Source of the DNA: Kribbella sp. ALI-6-A
Lineage (GTDB): Bacteria > Actinomycetota > Actinomycetes > Propionibacteriales > Kribbellaceae
Length of the DNA: 64,000 nt
Reading direction: 5' to 3'
NCBI RefSeq assembly: GCF_001984195.1
Contig: NZ_MTQN01000009.1
Span: 372,001-436,000, forward strand
A model generated the notes under the pieces. The model searched no databases, was not told where the DNA came from, and worked only from the letters and a program-made list of their open reading frames with translations. A program made the translations under genes and the position numbers. Below, one piece after another: positions 20,387 to 35,200 of the stretch (position 1 is its first letter; the number at the start of each line of letters is the position of its first letter).

Positions 20387-20466
20387 GGGTGCTCCCGGGT
20401 GAGGACATGGCCAGAGCGATCGCGCCGGCCTCAGCAGGTCGCCGGTGGCGACGACACTTGCTTTCA

Positions 20467-20528
20467 GCAACGATCAGGCAACACCCAGGTCACGACCGGC
20501 CCGCCCACCCCGGCAACGATCAGGCAAC
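20467..20528. repeat. 16-bp direct repeat GCAACGATCAGGCAAC
   Basis: Identical copies at 20467-20482 and 20513-20528, 46 bp apart, in the 133-bp gap between the lipoprotein start and the acetyltransferase 3' end; the second copy covers that gene's stop. It could be a binding site upstream of the lipoprotein gene or a small duplication. Confidence 0.6.
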
Positions 20529-21071
20529 GCCACCGACGCGGGCGGCGTCGGGCCACGCCGCGCGCAGGCACTTCGGCGTACCGACCAGGCGGGTGGGGTC
20601 TCCGCCGGGCGGCGGCACCGGCGCGACCTCCACGAACTCAGCACCGGTGGCGCGGTAGAACGCTTGCGCCGCGGTGTTCTGCTGCAGCACCCACAGGTAC
20701 ATCGCGTCGCCGCTCGCCTGGTCGATCACCGCCCGGCCGGCGCGGGTGAGCAGTTGCCGGCCGATGCCGCTGCGGTGCTCACTGGTGCGGACGTGCAGGT
20801 TGTCGACCAGGCTGCCCCACCGCGGGTCGTCGTCGAACGCGACGTGCACGAAGCCCACCAGCTGATCGTCCCGCTCCGCCAGGATGGTGGCTGTCGCGAC
20901 CGGCGCCGCGAGCCGCGCCGACCAGACAGAACGGCGGTCGGCCACGACGTCGCCGTCCAGGAACGAGTCGGCGTACGCACCCCGGTAGTGCCGGCGCCAA
21001 CTGTCCGCGTGGAGTCCGCCGACCTGTTCGGCGTCGTCCACCGTCGCCGACCGGAACCGCACCGTTGTCAT
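20520..21071 (-). CDS. GNAT-family N-acetyltransferase
   Basis: 183 residues. The acetyl-CoA pyrophosphate loop appears as SEHRSGIGRQLL, with the fold's C-terminal LQQNTAAQAFYRATGAEFVE. ATG 21071 is preceded by GGGAGG five bases away. It lies 33 nt from the next acetyltransferase on the same strand and may be cotranscribed. Substrate unknown. Confidence 0.88.
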   Translation of the reverse strand: MTTVRFRSATVDDAEQVGGLHADSWRRHYRGAYADSFLDGDVVADRRSVWSARLAAPVATATILAERDDQLVGFVHVAFDDDPRWGSLVDNLHVRTSEHRSGIGRQLLTRAGRAVIDQASGDAMYLWVLQQNTAAQAFYRATGAEFVEVAPVPPPGGDPTRLVGTPKCLRAAWPDAARVGGVA

Positions 21072-21104
21072 CGTGACCTCCCGACCGGAATCATCGCCCA
21101 CCGG

Positions 21105-21677
21105 TCAGCGCAGGTCCAGGCGCATCAGCACGCGGGGGTGACCGGCCAGGACGGACGTGGTGTCGGCGACCTTGCGGAAACCGGCGCGCTCGAAGTTCTT
21201 GCGCAGGCCGGGGTAGGCCATGGTCAGGTCGACTTTGGCGTCGCCGTTGTCGAGCGGATAGGACTCCACCACCGGCGCACCGTGGGCGCGCGCGAAGTCG
21301 ACGGCGCCGGAGATCAGGGCGTGCGAGATGCCCTGCTTGCGGTGGCCGGGGCGGACCCGGACGCACCACAGCGACCAGACCGGCAGGTCGTCGAGCCGCG
21401 GGATCTTGCGGTTGCGGGCGAACGACGTGTCCGCGCGCGGCGCGACCGCCGCCCAGCCCACCGGCGTGTCCCCGTCATAAGCCAGTACGCCGGGCGGCGG
21501 CTCGGCGCGGCACAGCTCGGCGACGTACTCGCCCCTGGCCGGGCCGCGGAGCTCGTTGTTCAGCTTCGACGGAATCCGGTAGCTGAGGCACCAGCAGACG
21601 GTGGACTGCGGCGACTTCGGACCGAGCACCGCCCGCACGTCCTCGAAGACCACCGCCGGCCGGATCTCGATCGCCAT
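21105..21677 (-). CDS. GNAT-family N-acetyltransferase
   Basis: 190 residues. The acetyl-CoA loop is VRVRPGHRKQGISHALI, followed by the C-terminal YPGLRKNFERAGFRKVAD. The N-terminal third carries STVCWCLSYRIP, a Cys-containing motif seen in a distinct actinobacterial GNAT group. No clear ribosome-binding site precedes ATG 21677, so it may be leaderless or poorly translated. Divergent from the STAS operon. Substrate unknown. Confidence 0.86.
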   Translation of the reverse strand: MAIEIRPAVVFEDVRAVLGPKSPQSTVCWCLSYRIPSKLNNELRGPARGEYVAELCRAEPPPGVLAYDGDTPVGWAAVAPRADTSFARNRKIPRLDDLPVWSLWCVRVRPGHRKQGISHALISGAVDFARAHGAPVVESYPLDNGDAKVDLTMAYPGLRKNFERAGFRKVADTTSVLAGHPRVLMRLDLR

Positions 21678-21747
21678 GACGACACGATGACACCGTTCGG
21701 GTCACCCGTCAGCGACCGCCACGACGTCCACCGCGGGCCGGTGGTAG

Positions 21748-21776
21748 TTGATCCGAACGGTGGCCGGGTGATAAAT
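21748..21776 (+). promoter_or_regulatory. Candidate promoter of the STAS/RsbU/B12 operon
   Basis: TTGATC (21748-21753), 17-bp spacer, then the AT-rich ATAAAT (21771-21776), the only such stretch in the 219-bp divergent gap. A start near 21783 would give a leader of about 110 nt. A GGGTGAT also lies here (21766-21772), loosely like an alternative-sigma -10. Weak evidence. Confidence 0.35.
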
Positions 21777-21896
21777 CTGAAGGTCGATTCGGTGGTTCCG
21801 ACCTGCAGCCGCCGTCGTCGCCCGTGGTGTCGTACCGCCGCGGGTTGTCCGACCGGCTCCCGGCACGACAGCGGGTGACGGGGTTAGGAGCCTGTC

Positions 21897-22418
21897 GTGC
21901 TCACCGACGACGCCGCCGCTTTCACCGTGGACGTCGACACCTCCGGACCCGGCCCGCTGGTTCGGGTGCACGGCGACCTCGATCTGGAGTCCGCGCCGGA
22001 GCTGACCAACACGCTCAAGGCGCTGCTCGGGCCGTACCCGCTCGTGCTCGACCTGAGCGGCGTCGAGTTCATGGACTCCTCCGGTCTGGGCGTCCTGGTC
22101 GGCGCCCACAAGGAGTCGATCGCCCATGGTGGCGCGCTGATCGTGGTCGGTCCGCAGCCCCGGGTCCGCAAGATCCTCAAGATCACCAAATTGGAGAAAG
22201 TGTTCACCGTCTACTCGTCCCTCGACGACCTCGCCCCCGAGCTCGCCCAGCAGCAGCTCTCGGCGGAGTCGGCCGCGGCCCAGCCGCCACTTCCCGGGGA
22301 CGCCACCGCGACCCCGCCACCCCAGCCTCCGCTCCCCCACCACCAGGAGCCGAGCTTCTCGCCGCCGCTCCCCCACCATCAGGCGCCGAACCTCTCGCCG
22401 CCGGGACGTGACCGCTGA
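21897..22418 (+). CDS. STAS-domain anti-sigma factor antagonist (RsbV/SpoIIAA type)
   Basis: 173 residues. The STAS domain occupies residues 8-110, with GDLDLESAPEL and the phosphorylation segment DLSGVEFMDSSGLGVLVGA (Ser61/Ser62). In partner switching the dephosphorylated form binds an anti-sigma kinase and frees a sigma factor. An unusual Pro/His-rich tail of about 55 residues follows, with a repeated PPLPHHQ. GTG 21897 is preceded by TAGGAG. Its stop overlaps the phosphatase start by one base (TGATG), so the phosphatase that would dephosphorylate it is coupled. No anti-sigma kinase is encoded in the window. Confidence 0.93.
   Translation: MLTDDAAAFTVDVDTSGPGPLVRVHGDLDLESAPELTNTLKALLGPYPLVLDLSGVEFMDSSGLGVLVGAHKESIAHGGALIVVGPQPRVRKILKITKLEKVFTVYSSLDDLAPELAQQQLSAESAAAQPPLPGDATATPPPQPPLPHHQEPSFSPPLPHHQAPNLSPPGRDR
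22329..22400 (+). repeat. Two tandem 36-bp repeats in the STAS gene tail
   Basis: Two imperfect 36-bp units (22329-22364, 22365-22400) encode consecutive 12-residue units of the form PLPHHQxPxxSP. This is in-frame duplication in the disordered tail of the STAS protein. Confidence 0.8.
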
Positions 22419-23737
22419 TGACCTCCGGCGGCACGATCCCGGACGACGTCCGGAACCCGCTCCTGGCAGACTCGGCCGCCGTCCGCGCGGAGATCGTCGA
22501 CGAGGTCGGCCTCGCCATGACCGGCTCGCTCAACCTGCGCCGCTGCGTCCTGCAGCTGCTCACCGGCGTGAAGCCGGACATCGCCGACTGGGCGGTCGTG
22601 GTCTGGGTCAACCCCCGCACCGGCGGGCTGACCCTCTGGGGCGGCGACGACCCGTCGGCGACCGCGAAGACCTCGCGCCGCTCGATCGCCGGTCAGGCGC
22701 TCGAGCGGGTGCTGGTCACCGGGCACACCGAGCTGCTGCACGTAGCGCTCGAGGACCCCGCGTCCGACGCTCTCGCCACGATGATCCCGAACGCCGGACT
22801 GCGTGAGCAGGCGGCGGCGTTGCGGCCGGTCGACGTACTCGGCCTGGGCCTGACCGCGCGCGGCGTCACGCTGGGTGCGCTGGTGATGGTCCGCGGCCAG
22901 GGACGGGGATTCTCCGAGCAGGACGTCGCCGTCGGTGAGCAGCTGGCGGCCCGGGCGTCGCTGGCGCTCGACTCGGCGCGGCTCTACGAGCAGACGAGCC
23001 GGGTCGCGGCGGCGCTGAAGGAGAGCCTGGTCCCGCCGGAGCTGCCGGCGATTCCGGGCCTCGACATCGCGGCCAGGTACCGGCCGGCGATCGAGCACCT
23101 CGACATCGGTGGCGACTTCTACGACGTCTTCACCTCCGGCGACGAGTGGCTCGCCGTTCTCGGTGACGTCTGCGGCAAGGGCGTCGACGCCGCCGTCCTG
23201 ACCGGTCGGGCGCGGCAGAGCATCCGGACGGCGGCGCACTTCGAGCGCGAACCGGGTGCGTTGCTGGCAGCGTTCAACACCGTCTTCTCGCAGGACACGT
23301 CGAACCGCTTCATCACGCTGGTCTGTTTGCGGATGCGACCGGCCGCCGACGGGTCGTCGGCCGAGGTGGACATCGCCGTGGCCGGGCATGCCGGGCCGGT
23401 GCTGGTGCGCGCCGACGGGCGAACCGAGCAGCTGCCGATCGAGGGCACGGTGGCCGGCGTCGTACCGCGGGTGGACTATCCGACGACCACGGTGCGGCTC
23501 GAGCAGGGCGACGCTCTGCTGGTCTTCACCGACGGGGTCGAAGAGGCCCGCGGCGAGAGCGGGTTCTACGGGACGGATCGGCTGATCCGCCTGCTGCGCG
23601 AGTACGCCGGTGCGGGTGCGGACGCGATGTGCGGAGCGGTCGAGCAGGACGTGGTCGAGCATCTCGACGGTCGCGCCCACGACGACATCGCCGTGCTGGC
23701 GATCAGTTGTGGAGGCACCCTCGGATGGCAGAGCTGA
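22418..23737 (+). CDS. GAF-PP2C serine phosphatase (RsbU/SpoIIE type)
   Basis: 439 residues. A GAF sensor domain covers about residues 20-195, a short coiled segment (YEQTSRVAAALKESLVPPEL) follows, and the SpoIIE/PP2C phosphatase fills the rest. Metal-binding motifs are visible: GGDFYDVF, GDVCGKGVDAA, FTDGVEEAR and HDDIAVLAI. Expected to dephosphorylate the STAS protein encoded just upstream. Starts at ATG 22418 inside the STAS stop; its end overlaps the cobalamin protein start by 13 nt. The GAF domain may sense a small ligand or redox state; no haem-ligand motif is evident. Confidence 0.93.
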   Translation: MTSGGTIPDDVRNPLLADSAAVRAEIVDEVGLAMTGSLNLRRCVLQLLTGVKPDIADWAVVVWVNPRTGGLTLWGGDDPSATAKTSRRSIAGQALERVLVTGHTELLHVALEDPASDALATMIPNAGLREQAAALRPVDVLGLGLTARGVTLGALVMVRGQGRGFSEQDVAVGEQLAARASLALDSARLYEQTSRVAAALKESLVPPELPAIPGLDIAARYRPAIEHLDIGGDFYDVFTSGDEWLAVLGDVCGKGVDAAVLTGRARQSIRTAAHFEREPGALLAAFNTVFSQDTSNRFITLVCLRMRPAADGSSAEVDIAVAGHAGPVLVRADGRTEQLPIEGTVAGVVPRVDYPTTTVRLEQGDALLVFTDGVEEARGESGFYGTDRLIRLLREYAGAGADAMCGAVEQDVVEHLDGRAHDDIAVLAISCGGTLGWQS

Positions 23738-24726
23738 CCGTTCCCGAGCTCGACGCGCTCGGCGCCTTCGAACTGGCCTTGGCCACTGTCGACACGGCGG
23801 CCGCCCTGCAGGTCGTGGAGGGACTGCTCGCGAACGGCGTACCGCCCGTCGTCGTCCTGACCGACGTCGTCGCCACCGCGCAACGCAACGTCGGGGCGCG
23901 CTGGCAGCGCGGCGACTGGACGGTGGCCGAGGAGCACGCCGCGACGGCCGTCGCCGTCGCGGCCACCGAGGCCGTCGCCCGGCACGTGCGGCAACTGCCG
24001 GTGACCCGCGGCAAGGCGCTGGTGGCCTGCGCCGAACGGGAGTGGCACGCGCTGCCCGCGATGATCATCGACTGCGCCCTGCGCGCGGACGGCTGGGACA
24101 CCACGCTGCTCGGGGCGTCGACTCCGCCGCTGCGCCTCGGGCAGTACCTGCAGGATCTCGGCCCGGACGCTCTGGCCGTGAGCTGCTCGATGCTGGGCGC
24201 CCTGCCGACGACCAGACGGTTCATCGAGGCGAGTACGACGGCCGGGATCCCGATCGTGGTGGGCGGCGCGGCGTTCGGGCCGGACGACGTACGGGCTCGG
24301 GCGCTGGGGGCGACCGCGTGGGCGGCTGACGCGCCGAGTGCCGTACAGGCCGCGCGGGAGTTGCCGACGGTCGTGCAGATGGCCGAGCCGCTTCCCGCGG
24401 ACGCGACCGCCGAACAGGCCACGCTGGAGCTCTCGCACCGTGAGCTCGCCGGGCGCCTGCAAGCGGTCTGGGAGGTGGATCCTGCTGTGGACATCGCCGA
24501 GGACGCGATCAACCAGACCCTGCATGCGGTCTGGGCCGCTCTGCTCACCGGCGACGTACGCCCGATTCCGCAGACGGCTCAGTGGATCGCTGATCTGCTG
24601 AGTGCTCGCGACGCGGACCCGCGGCATGCGGTGACACTCGGGCAGCACCTGTGTACCGAGCTTCGCGACTATCCGCTGTCCCACACGCTGCTCAGCACGT
24701 CGTGGCCCGCGGCCGTCGGGATCTGA
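23725..24726 (+). CDS. Cobalamin-binding protein with CarH-like W-x9-EH cap, no DNA-binding domain
   Basis: 333 residues. Residues ~10-92 form the four-helix B12-binding cap with W60 and E70-H71 (RWQRGDWTVAEEH), matching the W-x9-EH signature that in CarH photoreceptors caps adenosylcobalamin. Residues ~96-215 form the Rossmann B12 domain: E106-W-H108 is the lower-ligand motif E-x-H, with Pro at the usual Gly, then GWDTTLLGASTP and VSCSMLGA. The H71-H108 spacing (37) is close to CarH. Residues 215-333 are a helical domain I do not recognise. No MerR DNA-binding domain is present. ATG 23725 has GGAGG upstream and overlaps the phosphatase gene by 13 nt. Inferred to be a B12- or light-responsive sensor acting on the STAS/RsbU pair. 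Confidence 0.85.
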   Translation: MAELTVPELDALGAFELALATVDTAAALQVVEGLLANGVPPVVVLTDVVATAQRNVGARWQRGDWTVAEEHAATAVAVAATEAVARHVRQLPVTRGKALVACAEREWHALPAMIIDCALRADGWDTTLLGASTPPLRLGQYLQDLGPDALAVSCSMLGALPTTRRFIEASTTAGIPIVVGGAAFGPDDVRARALGATAWAADAPSAVQAARELPTVVQMAEPLPADATAEQATLELSHRELAGRLQAVWEVDPAVDIAEDAINQTLHAVWAALLTGDVRPIPQTAQWIADLLSARDADPRHAVTLGQHLCTELRDYPLSHTLLSTSWPAAVGI

Positions 24727-24739
24727 CGGCCCGCGGAGC

Positions 24740-25483
24740 TCATGGGCAGGTCGGCGTGATCGCCTGGGCCGCGGTGCGGTCGCCGGCGGTGATCGGCAGC
24801 GCGTACTTGCGGGCGACCTGGAGGTAGCGCAGCACGTAGGTGCAGCGGTAGGCGCGGTTCAGCGGCATCCACTCGCCCGGACCGGCGTCGTTCTTGGAGG
24901 CGTTGGCCGGGCCGTCGACCGCGAGCAGGTTGGCGGCCTGGTCGTTGGCGAAGTCGACGCGTCGTTGGGCCGACCAGCGGGCCGCGCCCATGTCCCAGGC
25001 CCGGGACAGCGGGTAGACGTGGTCGATCTGCACCTTGGACGCCGCGGCCTTGCGGAACTCGACCCGGCGGCCGGTGTAGGGCTCGGACGGCAGCAGGCCG
25101 GCCACGACGACGCAGCTCTTCGCGGTGCGGTTCTGCACCACGGTCAGCTGCGCGGCCAGTACGTCGTTACGGGTGTCGCACCCGTTGTGACCGCCCGGGC
25201 CGTTGTGGTCATCGGTCCAGGCCTGACCGAAGCGGTCGCGCTGGTAGCCCGGTACGTCCGGCCGGACCGCGACGACCCGGGCCTGCCGCAGCTCCGCGGC
25301 GATCGCCTTCGCCGTACCGGTCGCCGGCTTGGCCGGTCCCGTCGGCTTGGGCGCCGGTGACTTGGTGGCGGTGGGTTCGGTCGCGGGACGGGAAGGGGTC
25401 GGGCTGGAGCCGGCGGACGGGTAGGTGCACCCGGCGGTTGTCGCACAGACGAGCAGGACCACGGCGAAGCGAAGGCGGATCAC
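24740..25483 (-). CDS. Secreted HNH-nuclease-like lipoprotein (DUF1524/GmrSD C-terminal type)
   Basis: 247 residues. Signal peptide with lipobox TTAGC (C19), then a Pro/Thr-rich linker to residue ~55. The catalytic domain carries VQIDHVYPLSRAWDMG (the DH of the HNH motif) and later FANDQAANLLAVDGPAN and ASKNDAGPGEWMP, the pattern of the DUF1524 branch of HNH endonucleases. Cysteines at DTRNDVL and near the C-terminus may form disulfides. Exported nucleases of this type probably degrade extracellular DNA for nutrition. Convergent with the cobalamin protein gene, 13 nt apart, without a clear terminator. Confidence 0.85.
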   Translation of the reverse strand: MIRLRFAVVLLVCATTAGCTYPSAGSSPTPSRPATEPTATKSPAPKPTGPAKPATGTAKAIAAELRQARVVAVRPDVPGYQRDRFGQAWTDDHNGPGGHNGCDTRNDVLAAQLTVVQNRTAKSCVVVAGLLPSEPYTGRRVEFRKAAASKVQIDHVYPLSRAWDMGAARWSAQRRVDFANDQAANLLAVDGPANASKNDAGPGEWMPLNRAYRCTYVLRYLQVARKYALPITAGDRTAAQAITPTCP

Positions 25484-25675
25484 GCGACCGCAAACTACCG
25501 GCCTGCGAGCGGCCCGCCCGGCGTACGCGCCGACGCCGGGCGATCGACTACGTCACTCGCTCAGGACCTGGACGACGCGTCGATTTCCGCGCCCGCTCGG
25601 CGCGTCGGCGGAAGAATGAGTGCGCTTCGGCGGGGCGCCATCGGTGAGCTTGGTACCGGTTGATTGACTGGGGTC

Positions 25676-27163
25676 GTGGGTACGGGCGACAAGGTGCTGG
25701 TAGCGAAGCGATACAAGTTGGGTCCGTCCATCGGACGCGGGGGCATGGGAGAGGTTTTCCGTGCCACCGACGAGGTGCTCGGACGTACGGTGGCGGTGAA
25801 GTTGCTGCTGCCGACCGACCGCGACCCCCGAGCCGCCGAACGCTTCCACCGGGAGGCGCAGGCCGCCGCCCGGCTGAGTGATCCGCAGGTCGTGTCCGTG
25901 TACGACTTCGGCAACCACGACGACGGCTTCTTCCTGGTGATGGAACTGGTCGAGGGCGGCACGGTCGCTGACGAGCTCACCCAGCACGGCCCGCTGCCCA
26001 AGGACCGCGCGATCGACATCGTCGAACAGGCCGCCGCGGGTCTGGCGGCCGCGCACCGGGAGGACGTCGTCCATCGCGACGTGAAACCGGGCAACCTGCT
26101 GGTGGCTCCGGGCGGGGCGGTGAAGGTCGCGGACTTCGGCATCGCTCATCTGCCGGGCCAAGGGGCGACCACGCTGACGGCGACCGGTCAGATCATCGGC
26201 AGCTCGCACTACCTCGCTCCCGAGCGGGCGCGGGGTGGCCGGGCCGGCAAGGCGTCGGACGTGTACTCGCTGGGCTGCGTGCTGTACCAACTGGTGACCG
26301 GGCGTCCGCCGTTCACCGCGGAGAACCCGACCGCGATCCTCTACCAGCACGTCGACGCCGAGCCGGTACGCCCGAGCCTGGAGCGGCCGGAGCTCGCCGG
26401 GTCCTTCGAGACCGTGCTGCTGCGGATGCTCGCCAAGGACCCCGCCGACCGGCCGACGGCCGCGGAGATCGCGGACGGCGCCCTGCGGGCCCAGCAGCCG
26501 CTCGGTGACGACTGGCGCGCGGTCGCGGGAGTCCCCGCTGCCGCGGGACTCGCTGCGACCGCTCCCTCGGCTGGTGCTGCTGATGTCCCCGCAGGCGCTG
26601 ATGTCCCCGCCGGGACCAACCCGCTCGAGGTTGCACCCCGGCCGCCGCGACGCCCTTCGACGAAGATGCTGGCGGGGCTGGTCGCCGTCCTGACGACGAC
26701 AGCGGCGGTGCTGGCCGGAGTCGCGATCTACGGCAACGACCCGACGCTGCCACCGACGACCGATCTGGGTCCGCAACCGGAGCTCACGACCCCCACGCCC
26801 GGCACCACCGCCAGTACGACGGACCCGACGACCACGACTTCCACCAGCGGTCCCACCCAAGGGGCGCCCGGCGGCGAGGCGAGCCCGACGGCGACGGTCC
26901 AGCCGACCCAGAGCCCGAGCGCGCAGCAGACCCCGACGCCTGGCACCACGCCGACCGGCGGTACGACACCGTCGCCGACGACGTCACCCACGGGGTCCGT
27001 GGAGCCGACGCCTACCCCTAGCCAGCCGACCCAGACGACGCCGTCGTCGGAACCGTCGCCTTCGACCACGCCGTCGTCGGACCCGTCTCCGTCCAGCACT
27101 CCGGTGAGTACACCACCCACGCCGGATCCTGCGCGGAACACCAGCTCGCCGTCGACGGACTGA
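25676..27163 (+). CDS. Membrane Ser/Thr protein kinase with Pro/Thr-rich extracellular tail
   Basis: 495 residues. Hanks-type kinase at residues ~10-270: GRGGMGEVF glycine loop, VAVKLLL, VVHRDVKPGNLLV, DFGIAHL, activation loop GSSHYLAPERA. A juxtamembrane region and one membrane helix (MLAGLVAVLTTTAAVLAG, about residue 345-362) follow, then ~130 residues of Thr/Pro/Ser repeats facing outside. No PASTA or other sensor domain is present, so the tail may be a wall spacer. GTG 25676 is the preferred start; TTG 25664 four codons upstream is the alternative. No strong ribosome-binding site. It lies 193 bp after the divergent nuclease gene, a stretch in which I see no other feature. Confidence 0.9.
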   Translation: MGTGDKVLVAKRYKLGPSIGRGGMGEVFRATDEVLGRTVAVKLLLPTDRDPRAAERFHREAQAAARLSDPQVVSVYDFGNHDDGFFLVMELVEGGTVADELTQHGPLPKDRAIDIVEQAAAGLAAAHREDVVHRDVKPGNLLVAPGGAVKVADFGIAHLPGQGATTLTATGQIIGSSHYLAPERARGGRAGKASDVYSLGCVLYQLVTGRPPFTAENPTAILYQHVDAEPVRPSLERPELAGSFETVLLRMLAKDPADRPTAAEIADGALRAQQPLGDDWRAVAGVPAAAGLAATAPSAGAADVPAGADVPAGTNPLEVAPRPPRRPSTKMLAGLVAVLTTTAAVLAGVAIYGNDPTLPPTTDLGPQPELTTPTPGTTASTTDPTTTTSTSGPTQGAPGGEASPTATVQPTQSPSAQQTPTPGTTPTGGTTPSPTTSPTGSVEPTPTPSQPTQTTPSSEPSPSTTPSSDPSPSSTPVSTPPTPDPARNTSSPSTD

Positions 27164-27218: not shown

Positions 27219-28994
27219 TTACTCAGGCGAGCTGTCGACCAGCCGTTGCCGGAGACCGGTCGCGCGCAGCGCGCGGCGGCTGAGTGCGAGCCGGACGGAC
27301 TCCTCGGTGCCGACAACCCGCACCCGGCTCTCCGCGCGCGTGATCGCGGTGTAGAACAACTCCCGCGTCAGCAGCCGTGACTCCTCGTTCGGCATCAGCA
27401 CGGTGACCTCGGCGGCCTGGCTGCCCTGGGCCTTGTGGATCGTCATCGCGTGCAGCGTCTCGATGTTGCCGAGGCGGCTGGGTGCGAAGTCGCGGCGCCC
27501 GCGCGAGCTGTCGATGCACACCCGCAGCGAACCGTCCGGCCGCCGAATGGTCACCCCGACGTCACCGTTGTAGATGCCCAGCGCGTAGTCGTTGGCCGTC
27601 ACCAGCACCGGCCGTCCGACGTACCAGGTGTCCCACAGCGGGTCCTCGGTCTCCTCGGTGATCCACCGCTCGACGGTCCGGTTCCAGTGCTGCACGCCCC
27701 ACAGACCTTCCCGATGCGCGCAGAGCAGGCGATGCCGGTCGAGCGCCGCCAGCGCGGCGTCCGCATCACCGGCCTCGGCAGCTTCCCGGATCGCCAGTAC
27801 GTCGGGAAGCAGCGCGGCGCGCAAGGTCTCCCGCGGGTCGTCCTGCTCGACGAAGTGCACCCGCTCCCCACCACCCCGCAGTACGCCGAGTACGTCGTCC
27901 GCCCGGTCCTCGCGCACGGCCAACGCCAGTTCGCCGATTTCGCTGCCGAACCGGTGCGAGGTCCGCAGCTCGGCGGCCTCGATGTGCCCGCCGGACACCA
28001 GCCCGTCGACGAGATCGGCCAGCACCGCGCCCGCCTCGATCGACGCCAGCTGGTCGGGGTCGCCGACCAGCACCAGCCGGGCTCCGGGCCGGACCGCCTC
28101 GAGCAGCCGCGCCATCATCGTCAGCGACACCATCGAGGTCTCGTCGACGACGACGATGTCGTGCGGCAGCCGGTTGTCGCGGTCGTGGCGGAACCGGCTG
28201 GACGAGTCCGGCCGCCGCCCGAGCAGCATGTGCAGGGTCCGCGCGTGGAAGTCGCCCAGCCGCGCGGTGTCCTCCGGGGACAGCCGGTCGGACATCTCGC
28301 GGCGTACCGCTTCTTCGAGCCGGGCCGCGGCCTTGCCGGTCGGCGCGGTCAGCGCGATCCACGGGCGCCGCTCCCCCGCGATCTCCGCCTGCTCCGCGAG
28401 CAGCGCCAACAGCCCGGCGACGGTGGTCGTCTTGCCGGTGCCCGGGCCGCCGGTCAGCACGGTCGTCCACTGCCGGACCGCGGTCTGCGCCGCGGCGCGC
28501 TGCTCGACGTACGAGCTGCCGGGGAACAGCCGGTCCAGCCCTGCCAGCAGCACGGCTTCGTTGGCGATCCGCGGCTCCAGTCGCTGGGCGCGACGGCGAA
28601 GGTCCTGCTCGACCTGCTCCTCCTCACGCCAGTAGCGATCGAAGTACAGCAGGGTCTCTTCCAGATGCAGCGGGTACGGCGCAGCGAGCAGCGGGCTCGC
28701 CCTGAGAGCCGTCAGCCACTCGTCGAGCGCCGGCCAGTCCAGCTCGGCGCCTTCCTCACCGACCTCGTCGCGCACCAAGGCGAGGTCGAGGCAGATCGAC
28801 CCGGCCCGTACGGCGCGCGCCACCAGCGCGCAGGCGAGCGCCACTGTCTCGTCGGTCTCCCCCAGCATGGCCGTGAGCCGCGACGCGACGTGCACGTCGG
28901 CGGCCAGGAGCACGCCGGCCGTGTTGAAGTCCCGCAGGATCCCGGTCGCTCCGAGCGCCAGCGCCGAGTCGAACTCATCGACGGTCGTGGTCAT
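27219..28994 (-). CDS. recD: Exodeoxyribonuclease V alpha subunit RecD
   Basis: 591 residues. SF1B helicase with Walker A TGGPGTGKTTTVAGLL near residue 180, TAPTGKAAARL, Walker B DIVVVDETSMVS, a GDPDQLASIEAGAV motif and the C-terminal AMTIHKAQGSQ and YTAITRAE motifs. It is the fast 5'-3' motor of RecBCD for double-strand break repair. ATG 28994 overlaps the recB stop in an ATGA; 60 extra upstream codons are an antisense-type artefact. Length is close to that of E. coli RecD. Last gene of recC-recB-recD. Confidence 0.95.
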   Translation of the reverse strand: MTTTVDEFDSALALGATGILRDFNTAGVLLAADVHVASRLTAMLGETDETVALACALVARAVRAGSICLDLALVRDEVGEEGAELDWPALDEWLTALRASPLLAAPYPLHLEETLLYFDRYWREEEQVEQDLRRRAQRLEPRIANEAVLLAGLDRLFPGSSYVEQRAAAQTAVRQWTTVLTGGPGTGKTTTVAGLLALLAEQAEIAGERRPWIALTAPTGKAAARLEEAVRREMSDRLSPEDTARLGDFHARTLHMLLGRRPDSSSRFRHDRDNRLPHDIVVVDETSMVSLTMMARLLEAVRPGARLVLVGDPDQLASIEAGAVLADLVDGLVSGGHIEAAELRTSHRFGSEIGELALAVREDRADDVLGVLRGGGERVHFVEQDDPRETLRAALLPDVLAIREAAEAGDADAALAALDRHRLLCAHREGLWGVQHWNRTVERWITEETEDPLWDTWYVGRPVLVTANDYALGIYNGDVGVTIRRPDGSLRVCIDSSRGRRDFAPSRLGNIETLHAMTIHKAQGSQAAEVTVLMPNEESRLLTRELFYTAITRAESRVRVVGTEESVRLALSRRALRATGLRQRLVDSSPE

Positions 28995-31900
28995 GCCGTC
29001 CTCCCGTCGAGCAGCTCGGACAGCGCGAGAACCATTGCCGCAGGCAACGGCCAGCTGAACACCCCGGCCGGATGGCCGTCCACCACCGGAGTCTCCGGGC
29101 CGCACATCCCGCGCAGATAGAGATAGACCACTCCGCCGAGATGCGTCTCCGGGTCGTACGCCGGCAACCGCCACCGCAGATAGCGATGCAGCACGACCGA
29201 GTACAGCATCGCCTGCAACGGATAGTCGGAGTGCAGCATCGCGGCACCCAGTTCGTCCCGCCCGTACGCCGCGGACGTCGCCGGCTGCTCCGGATCGCCG
29301 AGCCGGTTCGTCTTGTAGTCGACCACCACGAACCGATGACTCTCGCCGTCCGGAACCCGCAGGACGACGTCGATCGACCCGGACAGGTAGCCACGCAGAC
29401 TCTGCCCACCGAGCAAGGGCTGTTCGAGCCGTTCGGCGTACGCGAGCAGCGGGTCGTCAGCCGGCAGATGCGCGCGCATCAGCGGCGCCAGCTCGGACAG
29501 GTGCACGTCGACAGACGCGTGGTCGCCACCGGCCAGCGGAATCTCGAAGTCCAGCTCCCGAAGCCGGTCGCGGCGGCCCAGATCGCGCAACGTCAGGCCC
29601 GGCGCCAACGGCCCGAGCGGCGTGTCGTGCATCGGCAGCATCGCCGTCGCCAACTCGTCAGGCGTCACGTCGACCCGCCAGAACGGCAGCTGGTCCCGGA
29701 TCCGCGCGGCCAGCTCGGCGTGCAGGTCCGGCGCCAGCGGGTCGGCGTCCTCCAGCACGGCATGCACCAGCGACCCGAACGTCGCGCCGACCGGCAGCCC
29801 TTCCATCGGCGACGGCAACGCGTCGGGCGGCGGGATCGTCGGCGCCGGCACCAGATCGACCGCCTCGTCCTCCAACTGGCTTTCCTCCGGCTCGCTGCCG
29901 ACACCGCCCACCTGCTGCTCCGCGGCCCGGATCAACCCCGAGTACGACGTACGCCGCCACTGGAGGTCGACCTCACGCGAGAAGCGCGCGATCGTCAGCC
30001 CACCGGGCGATTGCTCCACAAGGGGCTCGACGTGATCCGCGATCGCGGATTCCTCGACCACCGGTCCCCCGGCCTGCTGCCAGCGCCGGAGCCAGATCAG
30101 CACCTCGTCGTCGGACGTCGCCCGGTCCAGCTGGTCGGGCACGACCGCCTCGCCCTGCTTCCGGCCGCGCAGCAGCCGGGAGATTCCGCCGTTGACCTCG
30201 TCCCACGACGGCGCCCACCAGGCCACGACCTGGGACTGGGCCCGCGTCAGTGCGACGTACGTGAGCCGGATGTCGTCACCGGCGACCTCGGCCCGCCAGC
30301 GCTTCTCGTTCGCCCGGTACTCGGCCCGGCCCTTGCCGCCGATGTCGAGGCTGCGGATGCCGTTTTCGTGGAACAGCAGCAGCTCCTCCTCGTCGAAGAT
30401 GTGCCGGTTGAAGCCGAACGGGAGGTAGACGACGGGATACTGCAGTCCCTTGCTCACCCACACCGTCATGATCTGGACCGCGGCGGCGTCGCTGTCGAGC
30501 CGGCGCGTGCGCTCGGCCGTCCGGCCCCTGCCGGTGCACTCCTGCCGCAGCCAGTCGAGCAACGCGGGCAGCCCGAACTTCTCCCGGTGCGCGGTGTCGT
30601 GCAGCAGTTCGGCCAGGTGGGCGAGGTCGGTCATGTCGCGCTCGCCGCCTCGCCAGGCGAGGACCCGATCCGCCATCCCGTTCAGCTGCGCGGCCTCGAA
30701 AACCGCCGCGACGCCACGAGCCCGCAGGTGATCGGCCCAGGCCCGCAGCGTCAGACCGATCCGGTCGGTGAGCTCCTCGCCGCCGGCGTGCAGGCTGGCC
30801 GCGGTCTCGCCGAAGAACATCGTCGTCGCCGCGGCCCGGACCAGGCCGGAGCGGTGCGGCTGCTCGAACGCCTCCAGCAGACACAGCCAGTCCTGGGCCG
30901 CCTGCGACGCGAAGATGTCCAGGTCACCGGAGTAGACCGCCGGGATCCCGGCCTGGGCGAGCGCCTCGCGGCAGGCCCGTGCGTCCTTGTGCGCCTCGAC
31001 GATCACCGCGACGTCACCCGCGCGCAGCGGCCGTTCGCCGTACGTCGGACCGGCGGCGAGCAGCCGCCCGATGTCGGCCGCGAGATCCCGCGCGATGTGG
31101 TCGCGCAGCTCGTCCATCGGGATGCTCTTGCGGGACGACGAGCCGAACTGCTCGCGGCGTACGACCCGGAGCCGGAACGGCGCGTCGCACGGCGCGCCCG
31201 CGAGCCGGCTGCCCTGGTGATGGGCCGCGACGGGGTGGACGACGATGTCGGGGTGCCCGAGCCGGGCACCGCCCAGCACGACCTGCAGACAGTCGACGAG
31301 TGGCTGATCGCTGCGCCAGTTGGTCCCGAGGGTCCGTCGCTGCCCCGCGGTCGCCGCCGCCGTCAGGTACGTCGCGATGTCGCCGCCGCGGAAGGCGTAG
31401 ATCGCCTGCTTCGGGTCGCCGATCAGGACCAGCGTGCTCGAGCCGTTGAACGCGGCGTCGATCACCTTCCACTGCACCGGGTCGGTGTCCTGGAACTCGT
31501 CGACCATCACGACCGACCAGCGACGCTGCATCCGCCGCCGCGCCGGCGCGGCCGGATCCTGCAGCGCTTCGGCCAGGCGGGTCAGCAGGTCGTCGTACCC
31601 GAGCACGCCGAGCCGGCGCTTGCGGCGCTCCACCTCGTCCAGGACGGCCAGCGCGAACTCGACGCGAACCCCCTCGGGAGAGGACTCGGCGTACTTCTCT
31701 GGCACCAGTCGGGTGTGCGGGTTGCCGACCACCTTCAGGGCGAGCTCGAGTGCGGTCCCGCGCGTGATCGGCGGCTGCTCCGCCGAACCGCCGAACCGGG
31801 CGAGGTAGAGGTCGTCGACCACTTCGGCAACGAGATCGGTCAGGTCCTCGACCAAGGTGACCCCGGCGTCGGTGTCACCGGCGACGCCCAGGGACCGCAG

Positions 31901-32284
31901 GACGAGCTGGCAGAACTGGTGCGTCGTCGCGATCGTCGCCGCGTCGAAGTTGGCCAGCGCGTCCCGGAGCCGCCCATGCCGTACGGCGAGCTCGGCGGCG
32001 CTCCCGTTGACCAGATGTCCGAGGAGCCCGGGATCGCCCCGCCACGGATCGGGATCGGCCAGAGCCTGCTCGGCCTCCAGCAACTGCGAACGCACGCGTT
32101 CGCGCAGCTCCTGGCTGGCCGCGCGGCCGAAGGTGATCAGCAGCATCTCGTCGAGGCGGGCGGCGCCCTCGGCGACGTACCGGGTGACCAGGCCGGCCAG
32201 CGCATAGGTCTTGCCCGTGCCGGCGCTTGCCTCCAGCACAGTGGTTCCCGACGGCAAAGGCCCCAGGAGATCGAACCCGTCCAT
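28991..32284 (-). CDS. recB: Exodeoxyribonuclease V beta subunit RecB
   Basis: 1097 residues. UvrD-like helicase with Walker A LEASAGTGKTYALAGL at residues ~16-31, Walker B MVDEFQDTDPVQW, motif III GDPKQAIYAFRGGDI, and YVALTRAQSQVV. The C-terminal nuclease domain has VVVDYKTNRLG (D-x-K), the metal-dependent active site shared with RecB/AddAB nucleases. ATG 32284 overlaps the recC stop by one base. Complete and apparently functional. RecB is the 3'-5' motor and the nuclease of the complex. Confidence 0.95.
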   Translation of the reverse strand: MDGFDLLGPLPSGTTVLEASAGTGKTYALAGLVTRYVAEGAARLDEMLLITFGRAASQELRERVRSQLLEAEQALADPDPWRGDPGLLGHLVNGSAAELAVRHGRLRDALANFDAATIATTHQFCQLVLRSLGVAGDTDAGVTLVEDLTDLVAEVVDDLYLARFGGSAEQPPITRGTALELALKVVGNPHTRLVPEKYAESSPEGVRVEFALAVLDEVERRKRRLGVLGYDDLLTRLAEALQDPAAPARRRMQRRWSVVMVDEFQDTDPVQWKVIDAAFNGSSTLVLIGDPKQAIYAFRGGDIATYLTAAATAGQRRTLGTNWRSDQPLVDCLQVVLGGARLGHPDIVVHPVAAHHQGSRLAGAPCDAPFRLRVVRREQFGSSSRKSIPMDELRDHIARDLAADIGRLLAAGPTYGERPLRAGDVAVIVEAHKDARACREALAQAGIPAVYSGDLDIFASQAAQDWLCLLEAFEQPHRSGLVRAAATTMFFGETAASLHAGGEELTDRIGLTLRAWADHLRARGVAAVFEAAQLNGMADRVLAWRGGERDMTDLAHLAELLHDTAHREKFGLPALLDWLRQECTGRGRTAERTRRLDSDAAAVQIMTVWVSKGLQYPVVYLPFGFNRHIFDEEELLLFHENGIRSLDIGGKGRAEYRANEKRWRAEVAGDDIRLTYVALTRAQSQVVAWWAPSWDEVNGGISRLLRGRKQGEAVVPDQLDRATSDDEVLIWLRRWQQAGGPVVEESAIADHVEPLVEQSPGGLTIARFSREVDLQWRRTSYSGLIRAAEQQVGGVGSEPEESQLEDEAVDLVPAPTIPPPDALPSPMEGLPVGATFGSLVHAVLEDADPLAPDLHAELAARIRDQLPFWRVDVTPDELATAMLPMHDTPLGPLAPGLTLRDLGRRDRLRELDFEIPLAGGDHASVDVHLSELAPLMRAHLPADDPLLAYAERLEQPLLGGQSLRGYLSGSIDVVLRVPDGESHRFVVVDYKTNRLGDPEQPATSAAYGRDELGAAMLHSDYPLQAMLYSVVLHRYLRWRLPAYDPETHLGGVVYLYLRGMCGPETPVVDGHPAGVFSWPLPAAMVLALSELLDGRTA

Positions 32285-35200
32285 CAGGGCGCTCCCTGCT
32301 CGAAGCGCAGCATCGGTTCCCACAGACGCGCCGCGTAGGCGCCGAGCCGGGTGGGCTCGCCCTGCCATTCCTCACCCGGACGCGTCGGCTCGAGCAGGAC
32401 CTTGAGCGGTGCGTTCGGTCCCCACACGCGGACGTGCGCGGGGTCCGCGTTCTCACCGTCGTAGTTGGCGGGCTTCCACCGCCGCCCGGCGGCGGTCATC
32501 GGGTCGTCGTCGGTCCGGCGCGCCTGGCACCAGGCGAAGGAGGTCTTCAACGGCAGCGGCAACGGTTCGCGGCGACCGCTGTCGTAGATCGAGATCAGAT
32601 CGGCGAGGAAGCCACGCGCCTGCGGTCCGACCGGGCCGAACAGCCGGCTCGCCGGAGTGCGGCCGCTGCGGGGACGGCCGATGGCCAAGCCGGTCCAGTT
32701 GTGGTCCTCGTCGTTGGCCGACAACGCGAGCAGCTGGATCCAGGAGGTCAGCAACTGCTTGGCGTCGAGCCGCGAGTAGCTCACCGAGACCAGCCGATAC
32801 CCGTACACGCCGGGCACCGTACCGGTGAGCCGCCGGCCACCGCCGAGCTCCACATCCACGTCGAACGCCGTGGCGCCGCCCTGCCGATGGGGATGCGCGG
32901 TGATCGCCAGGCCCCGCGCGATGTCTCGGATCTCCGTTGCGGTCCGCCAGCCCAGTCGTCCCGGCGGCAGCGTCCCCCGGCGCCACTCGGCCTGCAGCGC
33001 GGCGTCCGGGTGGATGCCCGCGAGCATGTCGCGCAGCATCCGGTCCCCGACCGACCACTTCTCCAGGTTGTCGATCTCCACCGGCATCGCGTCCGAGACG
33101 CCGTCGATCTCCCACGGCAGGGTCAGGTCGAGCGCCCGGAAGAACCCCTTGACCGGGTCACGGAAGAACGCGAGCAGATCCGCGAGCGCGACGTCCTCGC
33201 CGCCGGGCAGTATCAGCGGCTCGGCCAGGAACGTCGGCCGCGGCGGCCGCGAGCCGCCGCCGACCCGCGCCGCCACCAAAGCGGTCGGGTCGAAGGTGAA
33301 CGGCCCCGGCGTACCGAGCCGGCCGGACTCCAAGTTCTTGCGGTCGAAGGGCTGCAGCGGGTGGTTGACCACCACCGCGTCACGCACCTTCGAGTCGGTC
33401 GTGCGGTCCAGGGAGTCGAGCAACTCACCCAGCGGTACGGCGGGCGGCCGCGGCTGACCCGAGTACTCGTTGGCGCCGGTGTAGGTGACGACGAGCGACT
33501 CCGTGGCGGCGAGAATCGCGTCGAGCATCAACTGCCGGTCCTCACTGCGCACGTCCCGCTCGCCAGTGACCGGACGCCGGGCCAGGACGTCGTCGCCGTC
33601 GGACAGACCGAACCGCGGGAACACGCCGTCGTCGAGCCCGAGCAGGCAGATCACCCGGTGCGGCACCGAACGCATCGGCACCATCGTGCACACCGTCAAC
33701 GTGCCGCTGCGGAAGTTCGCCCGGGTCGGGCGACCGGCCAGATGGGACGACAGCAGTGCTCGGACGTCGGCCAGGCGCAACGAAGTGGCGGTGAGCGGCC
33801 CGGCCTCGGCCGCGACCTGGGCGAACTCGCGGTGCACCTGGCCGACCTGCCAGCCGTCGTCCGGCCCGACGCGGGTCAGCCGGTCGATCCCGTCGCGCAG
33901 GGCCTCGAGCCAGGTCGCGAGCGGCTGCGTCCCGTCGAGGCGATCAGTTGCCGCACGCAACCGATCGACGTACTCCGCGAACCTCCCGGCCAGCTCGATC
34001 CGGGTGCTGCCCACGTCGTCGAGCGGCAGGGTGGTGTCGATCCAGGCGTGCGCGTCAGCCGACATCGTGACGCCCGCCAGGACCCGGTCGACGCCGAAGC
34101 GCCAGGTGTTCTGCGGGAAGTCGGCCAGGCCGAACTGGTCGCGGTCGGTCCGGTCGAACGCCCACCGGACGCCCGACTCGCGCACCCACGCGGTCACGGT
34201 GTCGAGATCGTCGTCGGTGAAGCGGAAGCGCCGGCGTACCGGATCGGTCTGCGCCAGGTCGAGCACCTGGCTGGCCGTCGCCCTGCTGCCCGCGAGATCG
34301 AGCAACTGGGACGCGACGCCGAGCAGCGGATTGGTCTGGGTCAGCGAACGGTCGGCCAGTTGCACCCGGAGCTGATGGGCCGGATGGCCGTTCTTGTGCA
34401 GGTCGCCGAGGCCGAAGCGAGCGCTGATCAGCGGCGCGTAGGTCTCGATGTCGGGGCACATCACGAGGATGTCCCGCGGCTCCAGCGTCGGGTCGGCCTG
34501 CAGCATGCCCAGCAGCACCTCACGCAGTACGTCGACCTGCCGGGCGGTGCCGTGGCAGGCGTGGACCTGAACACTGCGATCGCCAGGAGCCAGCTGTCGT
34601 CCTTCAGAGGCCACGGTGTTGTTGCGCAGATCGTGCTGCAGCCAGCCGAGAAGTGTGCCGGGCGTCGTTGGTGACGGGAGGTGGCTGTCGACGCTCGGCA
34701 CCGCCGCGAGCGACAGCTGCAGCTCGCGACTGTCCCGCCCGAGGGTCGCCAGGAGTGGGTGTGCGGCCTGCTGATGCGTCACGTCGTTGGACCGCTCTCC
34801 CGCAGTCGCACCCTGCAGCCGCTCCCAGAGCACGCCGCTGGGGTTGGGAAGCCAGAGGTGTACGTCGCGGTGCTCGGCCAGCGCCGACAGCAGCTCGATC
34901 TCCGTGACCGGCAGCCGCGTGTGGCCGAACAGCGACAGCCGCGCCGGCAGATCGAGCGACTCGGGCTTCTCACGGAGCTGCGCCACCGTCTCGGCGTGAC
35001 GGACGGTCGGTGGCGGTGCATCGATCCGCTCGGCCAGTCGCCGCCACAGCTCCGGCTGCCAGCTCAGGTCGTCGTCGATGACCCCGCCGAGGCCGTCGGT
35101 GTTCCGCCCGGCGCTCCAGTCCGCGAGCACGGCCGGCCGCTGGACGGCGTACGCCGCGAACAGCCGGGCCAGCCGCGCCGCGACGGCGTACCGGCGTCCG

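Follow-up and report, generated by a model that had tools for sequence, protein, structure and literature searches.

A photocobilin-type receptor gene paired with a PP2C phosphatase gene in a Kribbella partner-switching operon, and a receptor lineage without the biliverdin clamp

Introduction

Photoglobins, a family reportedly described by Schneider and colleagues in 2022, are said to be B12-coupled non-heme globins found in signalling contexts. A gene for a protein ending in such a domain was found in a 64,000-nucleotide stretch of the 8.1 Mb genome of Kribbella sp. ALI-6-A (contig NZ_MTQN01000009.1, positions 372,001 to 436,000; hereafter the window). It is the last of three coupled genes, the others encoding a STAS-domain anti-sigma factor antagonist and a GAF-PP2C serine phosphatase. 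The closest described proteins are the photocobilins, receptors that hold both B12 and biliverdin (Zhang et al., 2024; PMC10979010). In SasPcob, light expels the adenosyl group and the dimer falls into monomers, while full-length AbDPcob expands in light with its dimer kept and its fused diguanylate cyclase becomes more than ten-fold more active. Standalone photocobilin domains can also act on this cyclase in trans, an effect whose sign is reversed for SasPcob without biliverdin. The function of standalone photocobilins is described as less clear, and SasPcob is predicted to interact potentially with STAS, SpoIIE and PP2C proteins (PMC10979010).

The first-pass annotation of the window had put forward as new the idea that B12 photochemistry would stand upstream of protein contacts rather than of DNA binding. 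This is already in print in the published passages of PMC10979010, where control through protein contact is documented by crystal structures and enzyme assays. Because that paper proposes the STAS/SpoIIE/PP2C link and shows light control by protein contact, the central idea is largely known. It was the only relevant paper found in a literature search for a link between B12, STAS and SpoIIE, a search outside which most subscription papers and supplements lay. The Kribbella operon is a known kind of system with lineage-level variation at the second chromophore site. What is added here is a conserved pairing with PP2C, a kinase beside the pair in relatives, and a lineage without the biliverdin residues; gene-context support for a PP2C output is stronger than in the passages of PMC10979010 consulted.

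The reading favoured here, with a probability of roughly 0.7, is that the operon encodes a partner-switching module with a light or B12 input, in which the photocobilin-type receptor modulates GAF-PP2C phosphatase activity towards the STAS antagonist.

The three-gene operon

The STAS and GAF-PP2C open reading frames overlap by 1 nucleotide and the GAF-PP2C and receptor frames by 13 nucleotides, so that the coupling of the three genes is real and has the overlaps given in the first-pass annotation. The features are as follows.

21897..22418, + strand: STAS-domain anti-sigma factor antagonist, 173 residues, Pro-rich tail, GTG start (open reading frame list, Pfam STAS)
22074..22091, + strand: DSSGLG motif, STAS residues 60-65 (sequence position)
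22418..23737, + strand: GAF-PP2C (SpoIIE/RsbU-type) serine phosphatase, 439 residues (open reading frame list, Pfam SpoIIE)
23725..24726, + strand: photocobilin-type receptor, 333 residues, ATG start, with four-helix cap, Rossmann B12 domain and photoglobin
23773..23970, + strand: helical cap, receptor residues 17-82, with W60 and E70-H71 (Pfam B12-binding_2, E 4.4e-10; conservation)
24010..24345, + strand: B12-binding Rossmann domain, receptor residues 96-207, carrying the lower-ligand motif E106-x-H108 (Pfam B12-binding, E 1.3e-16)
24364..24723, + strand: photoglobin domain as modelled, receptor residues 214-333 (model, Foldseek, VIA-align)
24505..24525, + strand: A261 to H267, with Ala where SasPcob has Asp270 and a lineage-specific His (alignment columns)

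The first protein matches Pfam STAS (E 1.6e-22) and the NCBIfam model ant_ant_sig (86 bits against a cut-off of 53), and its nearest solved structure is TM1442 (1sbo, E 2.9e-12). It carries the phospho-acceptor serine motif of STAS antagonists: the serine of DSSGLG is presumably the phospho-acceptor, as in SpoIIAA and RsbV. The second protein matches Pfam SpoIIE over residues 241-430 (E 1.5e-42) and the Rv1364c phosphatase 3KE6 (E 8.6e-18); its GAF_2 match (27.0 bits) falls slightly under the Pfam cut-off of 28.6 bits. The motifs GGDFYDV, GDVCGKG, TDGVEE and HDDIAVL, which have a catalytic role in PP2C phosphatases, are all intact. The operon resembles the RsbU-RsbV-RsbW systems of sigma-B and sigma-F in pairing a STAS antagonist with a SpoIIE-type phosphatase, but differs from them in that its input is a B12-photoglobin protein and that it holds neither kinase nor sigma factor.

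The receptor and its closest relatives

A PDB sequence search matched receptor residues 17-319 to SasPcob (8J2X/8J2W) at E 2e-44, followed by AbPcob (8J2Y, E 2e-40), a MerR-family B12 protein of C. thermophilum (8JBS, E 1.7e-19) and T. thermophilus CarH (5C8A, E 2e-6). A full-length AlphaFold2 model was built from an eight-sequence alignment, with a predicted local distance difference test (pLDDT) score of 87 and a predicted template modelling (TM) score of 0.81. Its top five Foldseek matches were the five photocobilin chains of 8J2X, 8J2W and 8J2Y (TM 0.79-0.82), and MerR-type B12 domains came next at a TMq of about 0.5. The C-terminus of about 120 residues, which had been left as an unassigned helical region, is a photoglobin, an assignment resting mainly on the full-length match. 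When residues 214-333 were modelled separately (pLDDT 89.7), photocobilins were again first in Foldseek (E 0.023, probability 1.00) and phycobiliproteins second. VIA-align superposed 117 residues of this model on 8J2X at Z 12.7 and gave Z 10-11.7 for phycobiliproteins, Z below about 13 being weak for helical folds.

W60, E70-H71 and E106-x-H108 lie exactly where the first-pass annotation had placed them, and both the W-x9-EH cap and the ExH lower ligand of CarH/LitR-type proteins are present. In an alignment of 79 relatives the cap motif was kept almost throughout (W in 78, E in all 79, H in 77), as was the lower-ligand H (77/79). The likeness to CarH that had been claimed holds for the cobalamin site but not for kinship, where SasPcob is far ahead of CarH, and the predicted structure likewise ranked photocobilins ahead of MerR-type B12 domains. 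As had also been claimed, no MerR DNA-binding domain is seen by Pfam and the protein begins with the B12 cap; where CarH and LitR have the MerR domain, this receptor has a photoglobin instead.

SasPcob, a standalone protein of Saccharothrix syringae, matches the receptor over its full length with 33% identity and a fold TM of 0.8, and its adenosylcobalamin (AdoCbl) residues are identical. It differs in having His137 and Asp270 and in binding biliverdin (PMC10979010); the window receptor has Arg137 and Ala261. AbDPcob (8J2Y) likewise combines a B12 domain with a photoglobin and lacks Asp270, with His in its place (PMC10979010), but its output is a fused diguanylate cyclase, whereas the probable output in the window is the separate adjoining PP2C gene. 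Neither Asp270 nor His137 is present in the window receptor, but the two residues do not strictly define photocobilins, since AbPcob, which bears that name, has other residues at both places. The receptor is therefore described here as a photocobilin-type variant and only a possible two-chromophore photocobilin.

Both Pfam domains of the receptor are also shared with corrinoid carriers, and weak matches to corrinoid proteins were found in NCBIfam (E 1e-6) and in the PDB search (2e-4 to 5e-9). The receptor might on this basis be a methyl carrier of a methyltransferase system, outside signalling. This is highly improbable given the photocobilin matches at E 2e-44, the photoglobin and the PP2C neighbour. 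Among NCBIfam models CarH (3.3e-11) outranks the carriers and all are far under their curated cut-offs, the carrier scores being 28 bits against 215 for TIGR02370, 25 against 350 for MtbC and 19 against 370 for MtgC_2. A methyltransferase is also absent among the seven window neighbours scanned, and the carrier reading was rejected on match strength and gene context.

The same genome also encodes a MerR-B12 protein of the CarH/LitR-like kind with W-x9-EH and ExH (L002, 1420-2424, minus strand; G000:C6 near 1191781-1192245). Two kinds of B12 sensor therefore co-exist in it.

Conservation of the receptor-phosphatase pair

Relatives were sought in samples of 38 genomes of the genus, 394 of the class and 296 of the phylum. 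Receptor relatives were found in 5/38 genus genomes (E up to 1e-20) and in 61/394 class-sample genomes (E up to 1e-25), the Kribbella genome itself being counted in both; at E up to 1e-60 they were found in two phylum-sample genomes, one of them again its own. As the class-sample scan scored five candidates per genome, further receptor copies may be missed. The receptor loci were counted as 76, or as 75 when a partial gene (L010) was also excluded; L003 and L004, which are copies of L075 and L078, are in neither count. These loci are not independent observations; L006 and L007, for example, are almost identical.

The first-pass annotation had proposed a context search for W-x9-EH cap proteins beside SpoIIE phosphatases, and this search bore out the pairing: a PP2C gene lies immediately upstream of the receptor gene on the same strand in 66/75 loci. 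Counted per sequence the figure is 66/77, and two of the eleven misses are second copies in tandem pairs. Within the genus, receptor and phosphatase relatives (the latter at E up to 1e-60) occupy the same five of 38 genomes. Receptor and phosphatase distances are correlated (r 0.92, 68 pairs, none of 2000 permutations as high), a correlation that is partly plain shared ancestry. Further comparison was made with 40 control windows from other places in 40 of the genomes, at sites picked by hand and not randomly. PP2C matches of at least 300 bits were found in 67/76 receptor loci and in none of the 40 controls, and STAS matches of at least 60 bits in 46/76 and 1/40, respectively, a contrast that favours the case loci, from which the profiles for PP2C and STAS were derived.

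The STAS gene is a looser companion. The idea that it forms a strict unit with the pair was rejected on its occurrence elsewhere in the genus, which is given with the other counts below. Two loci, L099 (G053) and L104 (G198), have tandem receptor genes behind a single PP2C gene, followed by STAS.

Kinase and sigma factor

The first-pass annotation had stated that no anti-sigma kinase lies in the window, and this was upheld: at an E limit of 0.001 the genome has 32 matches to HATPase_c_2, and none falls there. In relatives, a HATPase kinase gene was found beside the receptor-PP2C pair in 14/75 loci. In seven of them (L083, L088, L089, L091, L100, L128 and L130) the kinase gene is at most 2.5 kb upstream and shares the strand of the pair; in another seven (L006-L009, L095, L109 and L118) it is divergent and within 3.5 kb. 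All four kinases tested, those of L083, L088, L089 and L006, score above the Pfam HATPase_c_2 cut-off, and kinase matches of at least 60 bits were found in 21/76 receptor loci against 4/40 control windows. In L088 the STAS, kinase and PP2C genes overlap by 4 nucleotides each at candidate starts. In L083, whose receptor falls in the lineage of the window receptor (defined below), a single one-strand row runs sigma factor, STAS, kinase, PP2C, receptor, STAS. This is a single case; its sigma factor matches SigB/F/G at 253 bits (cut-off 234) and is separated from STAS by about 0.5 kb. Additional sequence taken upstream in three Kribbella relatives (L162-L164) contained no kinase.

The Kribbella genome contains additional RsbW-type and SigBFG-type genes outside the window. 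One of its clusters (L144, G000:C5:744000-757000) combines STAS and PP2C-HATPase with additional STAS and HATPase genes, and is a candidate source of partner kinases.

A Pkinase-domain gene for a Ser/Thr protein kinase (25664-27163) lies about 0.9 kb downstream of the operon, and its product might be the kinase that partners STAS, instead of an RsbW-type enzyme. This appears quite improbable, as an opposite-strand HNH-type gene intervenes and relatives carry HATPase kinases instead. Such a gene (phmmer E up to 1e-15) was found in 3/76 receptor loci, the window included, and in 0/40 controls. With only these three loci keeping it, the Ser/Thr kinase was rejected as a member of the module.

A receptor lineage without the biliverdin clamp

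Two residues hold biliverdin in SasPcob: Asp270 at rings A-C and, from the other monomer, His137 at a propionate (PMC10979010). AbPcob, with His at position 270, still takes up about 20% biliverdin and responds to red light (PMC10979010). In our alignment AbPcob has Ala at position 137. Of the 79 aligned sequences, 49 have Asp270, 48 have His137 and 47 have both, this last set having been chosen by these residues. The lineage of the window receptor was delimited at 51% identity or more to that receptor, which gives 18 distinct, near-complete sequences including its own; the closest relative outside shows 43% or less.

None of the 18 keeps either Asp270 or His137. Position 270 is Ala in seven, Val in six, Thr in three, Ile in one and Ser in one, and position 137 is Arg in all (R137 in the window receptor). 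The register at position 270 was obtained by a gap-free alignment counted back from Trp296; the window receptor has an Asp one residue before this position, so that a one-residue shift would matter for single sequences. Position 276 (His267 in the window receptor) is His in 18/18, Trp296 (W287) is kept in 18/18 and Trp249 is nearly invariant. The AdoCbl residues W60, E70, H71 and H108 (W61, E71, H72 and H108 in the alignment) are likewise kept in all 18. Arg137 without Asp270 was also seen in L125 and L130, which are more distant. Three genomes, G040, G286 and G327 (L081/L108, L083/L106 and L084/L119), were observed to contain both receptor lineages, each with a separate PP2C gene.

In a tree of the receptors, one change parts the 47 His137/Asp270 sequences from those with Arg137 and no Asp (99/90). 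The CarH-like outgroup, whose branch is very long, joins on the window-lineage side (97/99), and both residue columns were retained in the tree data; for these reasons loss of the biliverdin site is not separable from its primitive absence.

Heme oxygenase genes were also surveyed. No PF01126 match was found in the Kribbella genome, and 3/14 control genomes have one; within the same lineage PF01126 is present in G020 and G286 and weakly matched in G206. Strong PF01126 matches occur in 1/9 genomes with only the window lineage, in 23/41 with only the His137/Asp270 type and in 1/3 with both, a weak association (Fisher p 0.024, uncorrected for kinship). As a predictor of the biliverdin site heme oxygenase was rejected, being confounded by kinship and lacking a strong match in 18/41 SasPcob-type genomes.

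The receptor could still be a full two-chromophore photocobilin sensing both red and green, with biliverdin bound through Arg137 (at the propionate), Trp287 and His267. In favour of this, the lineage retains both the globin fold and the counterpart of Trp296, and AbPcob takes up some biliverdin and responds to red light without Asp270 (PMC10979010). It is nonetheless unlikely given the joint absence of Asp270 and His137 from all 18 sequences and of PF01126 from the Kribbella genome, though two genomes of the same lineage have that gene. 

In the favoured reading, the clamp being absent, B12 would be the main chromophore through which the sensor responds, at green and shorter wavelengths. The receptor is most likely a green-light B12 sensor that is bilin-free or weakly bilin-binding. 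More tentatively, and at somewhat less than even odds, the lineage as a whole may have lost or never gained the clamp, re-made its globin pocket to become one-chromophore or differently liganded, and taken PP2C as a dedicated output, B12 photochemistry then setting a SigB/F-type sigma factor by dephosphorylation.

Proposed mechanism

In the partner-switching module favoured here, the receptor in the dark would be a head-to-tail dimer with adenosylcobalamin ligated by H108. On illumination the Co-C bond would break, the adenosyl group would leave the W60/E70/H71 pocket and the dimer would open. The opened receptor would then alter the activity of the GAF-PP2C phosphatase by protein contact, with either sign. 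The phosphatase would dephosphorylate the STAS protein, which in that state would bind an RsbW-type kinase whose gene lies elsewhere in the genome, and would in this way free a SigB/F-type sigma factor. The globin may serve as a structural or contact domain, or may hold another ligand. A B12- or light-gated input to an anti-sigma cascade had been proposed in the first-pass annotation; the CarH-type site and the partner-switching operon are supported, and a B12 or light input to the phosphatase is likely. The analysis shows the genes, the fold, the conserved residues, the conserved gene pair and, in relatives, an adjoining kinase and once a sigma factor, whereas the light response, its sign, the contact with PP2C and the identity of kinase and sigma factor are inferred.

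AbDPcob enzyme activity differs among the apo, dark and lit states (PMC10979010), and a change between apo and holo forms can therefore also switch an output. The receptor might accordingly report AdoCbl supply to the phosphatase, its light sensitivity being incidental, and a scan of the operon's neighbours showed no gene for pigments or light responses. We regard this as improbable, since the whole photolabile adenosyl pocket is kept in the lineage, as in proven light receptors.

Beside the profile bias and shared ancestry noted above, several observations weigh against a light-input partner-switching module. Nine of the 75 loci (L121, L125, L133 and L137-L142), fully divergent members of the family whose receptors all score low on the receptor profile, have no PP2C neighbour. 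Besides the five genus genomes with the pair, STAS relatives also occur in 3/38 without it; in stretches of about 10 kb around these STAS relatives no kinase or phosphatase match was found. Both kinase and sigma factor lie outside the window, 61/75 loci have no HATPase kinase within the limits of 2.5 and 3.5 kb, and sigma factor matches of at least 80 bits are as rare in receptor loci (1/76) as in controls (1/40). In L116 (G108), a PP2C-linked receptor relative, Arg replaces W61, H108 and W296, and with W61 and H108 gone B12 binding is not essential in every PP2C-linked locus.

Losses at the cobalamin site were also observed in two loci without a PP2C neighbour, where H72 is lost in both L137 and L139 and H108 also in L139. 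The receptors of L116, L137 and L139 may no longer hold B12 in the manner of CarH.

Surroundings of the operon

No cobalamin riboswitch was found: Rfam gave no match at E up to 1 in 20400-26000. A promoter and terminator scan of 21600-25000 gave none, the scan being uninformative in GC-rich DNA. Directly downstream, on the minus strand, 24740-25483 encodes a protein that matches GmrSD_C and HNH domains and has a lipoprotein-like start. Further on, 27219-32368 (minus strand) holds adjoining RecD-like and RecB-like helicase/nuclease genes in the fashion of a RecBCD locus.

Significance

Receptor and phosphatase occur together, and in relatives a kinase and, in one case, a sigma factor stand in the row with them; this points to a testable target for the standalone photocobilins. 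The lineage lacking the biliverdin clamp offers a natural experiment on the role of the globin. If the proposed mechanism is true, visible light and vitamin B12 would be tied to stress-type sigma factors in actinomycetes.

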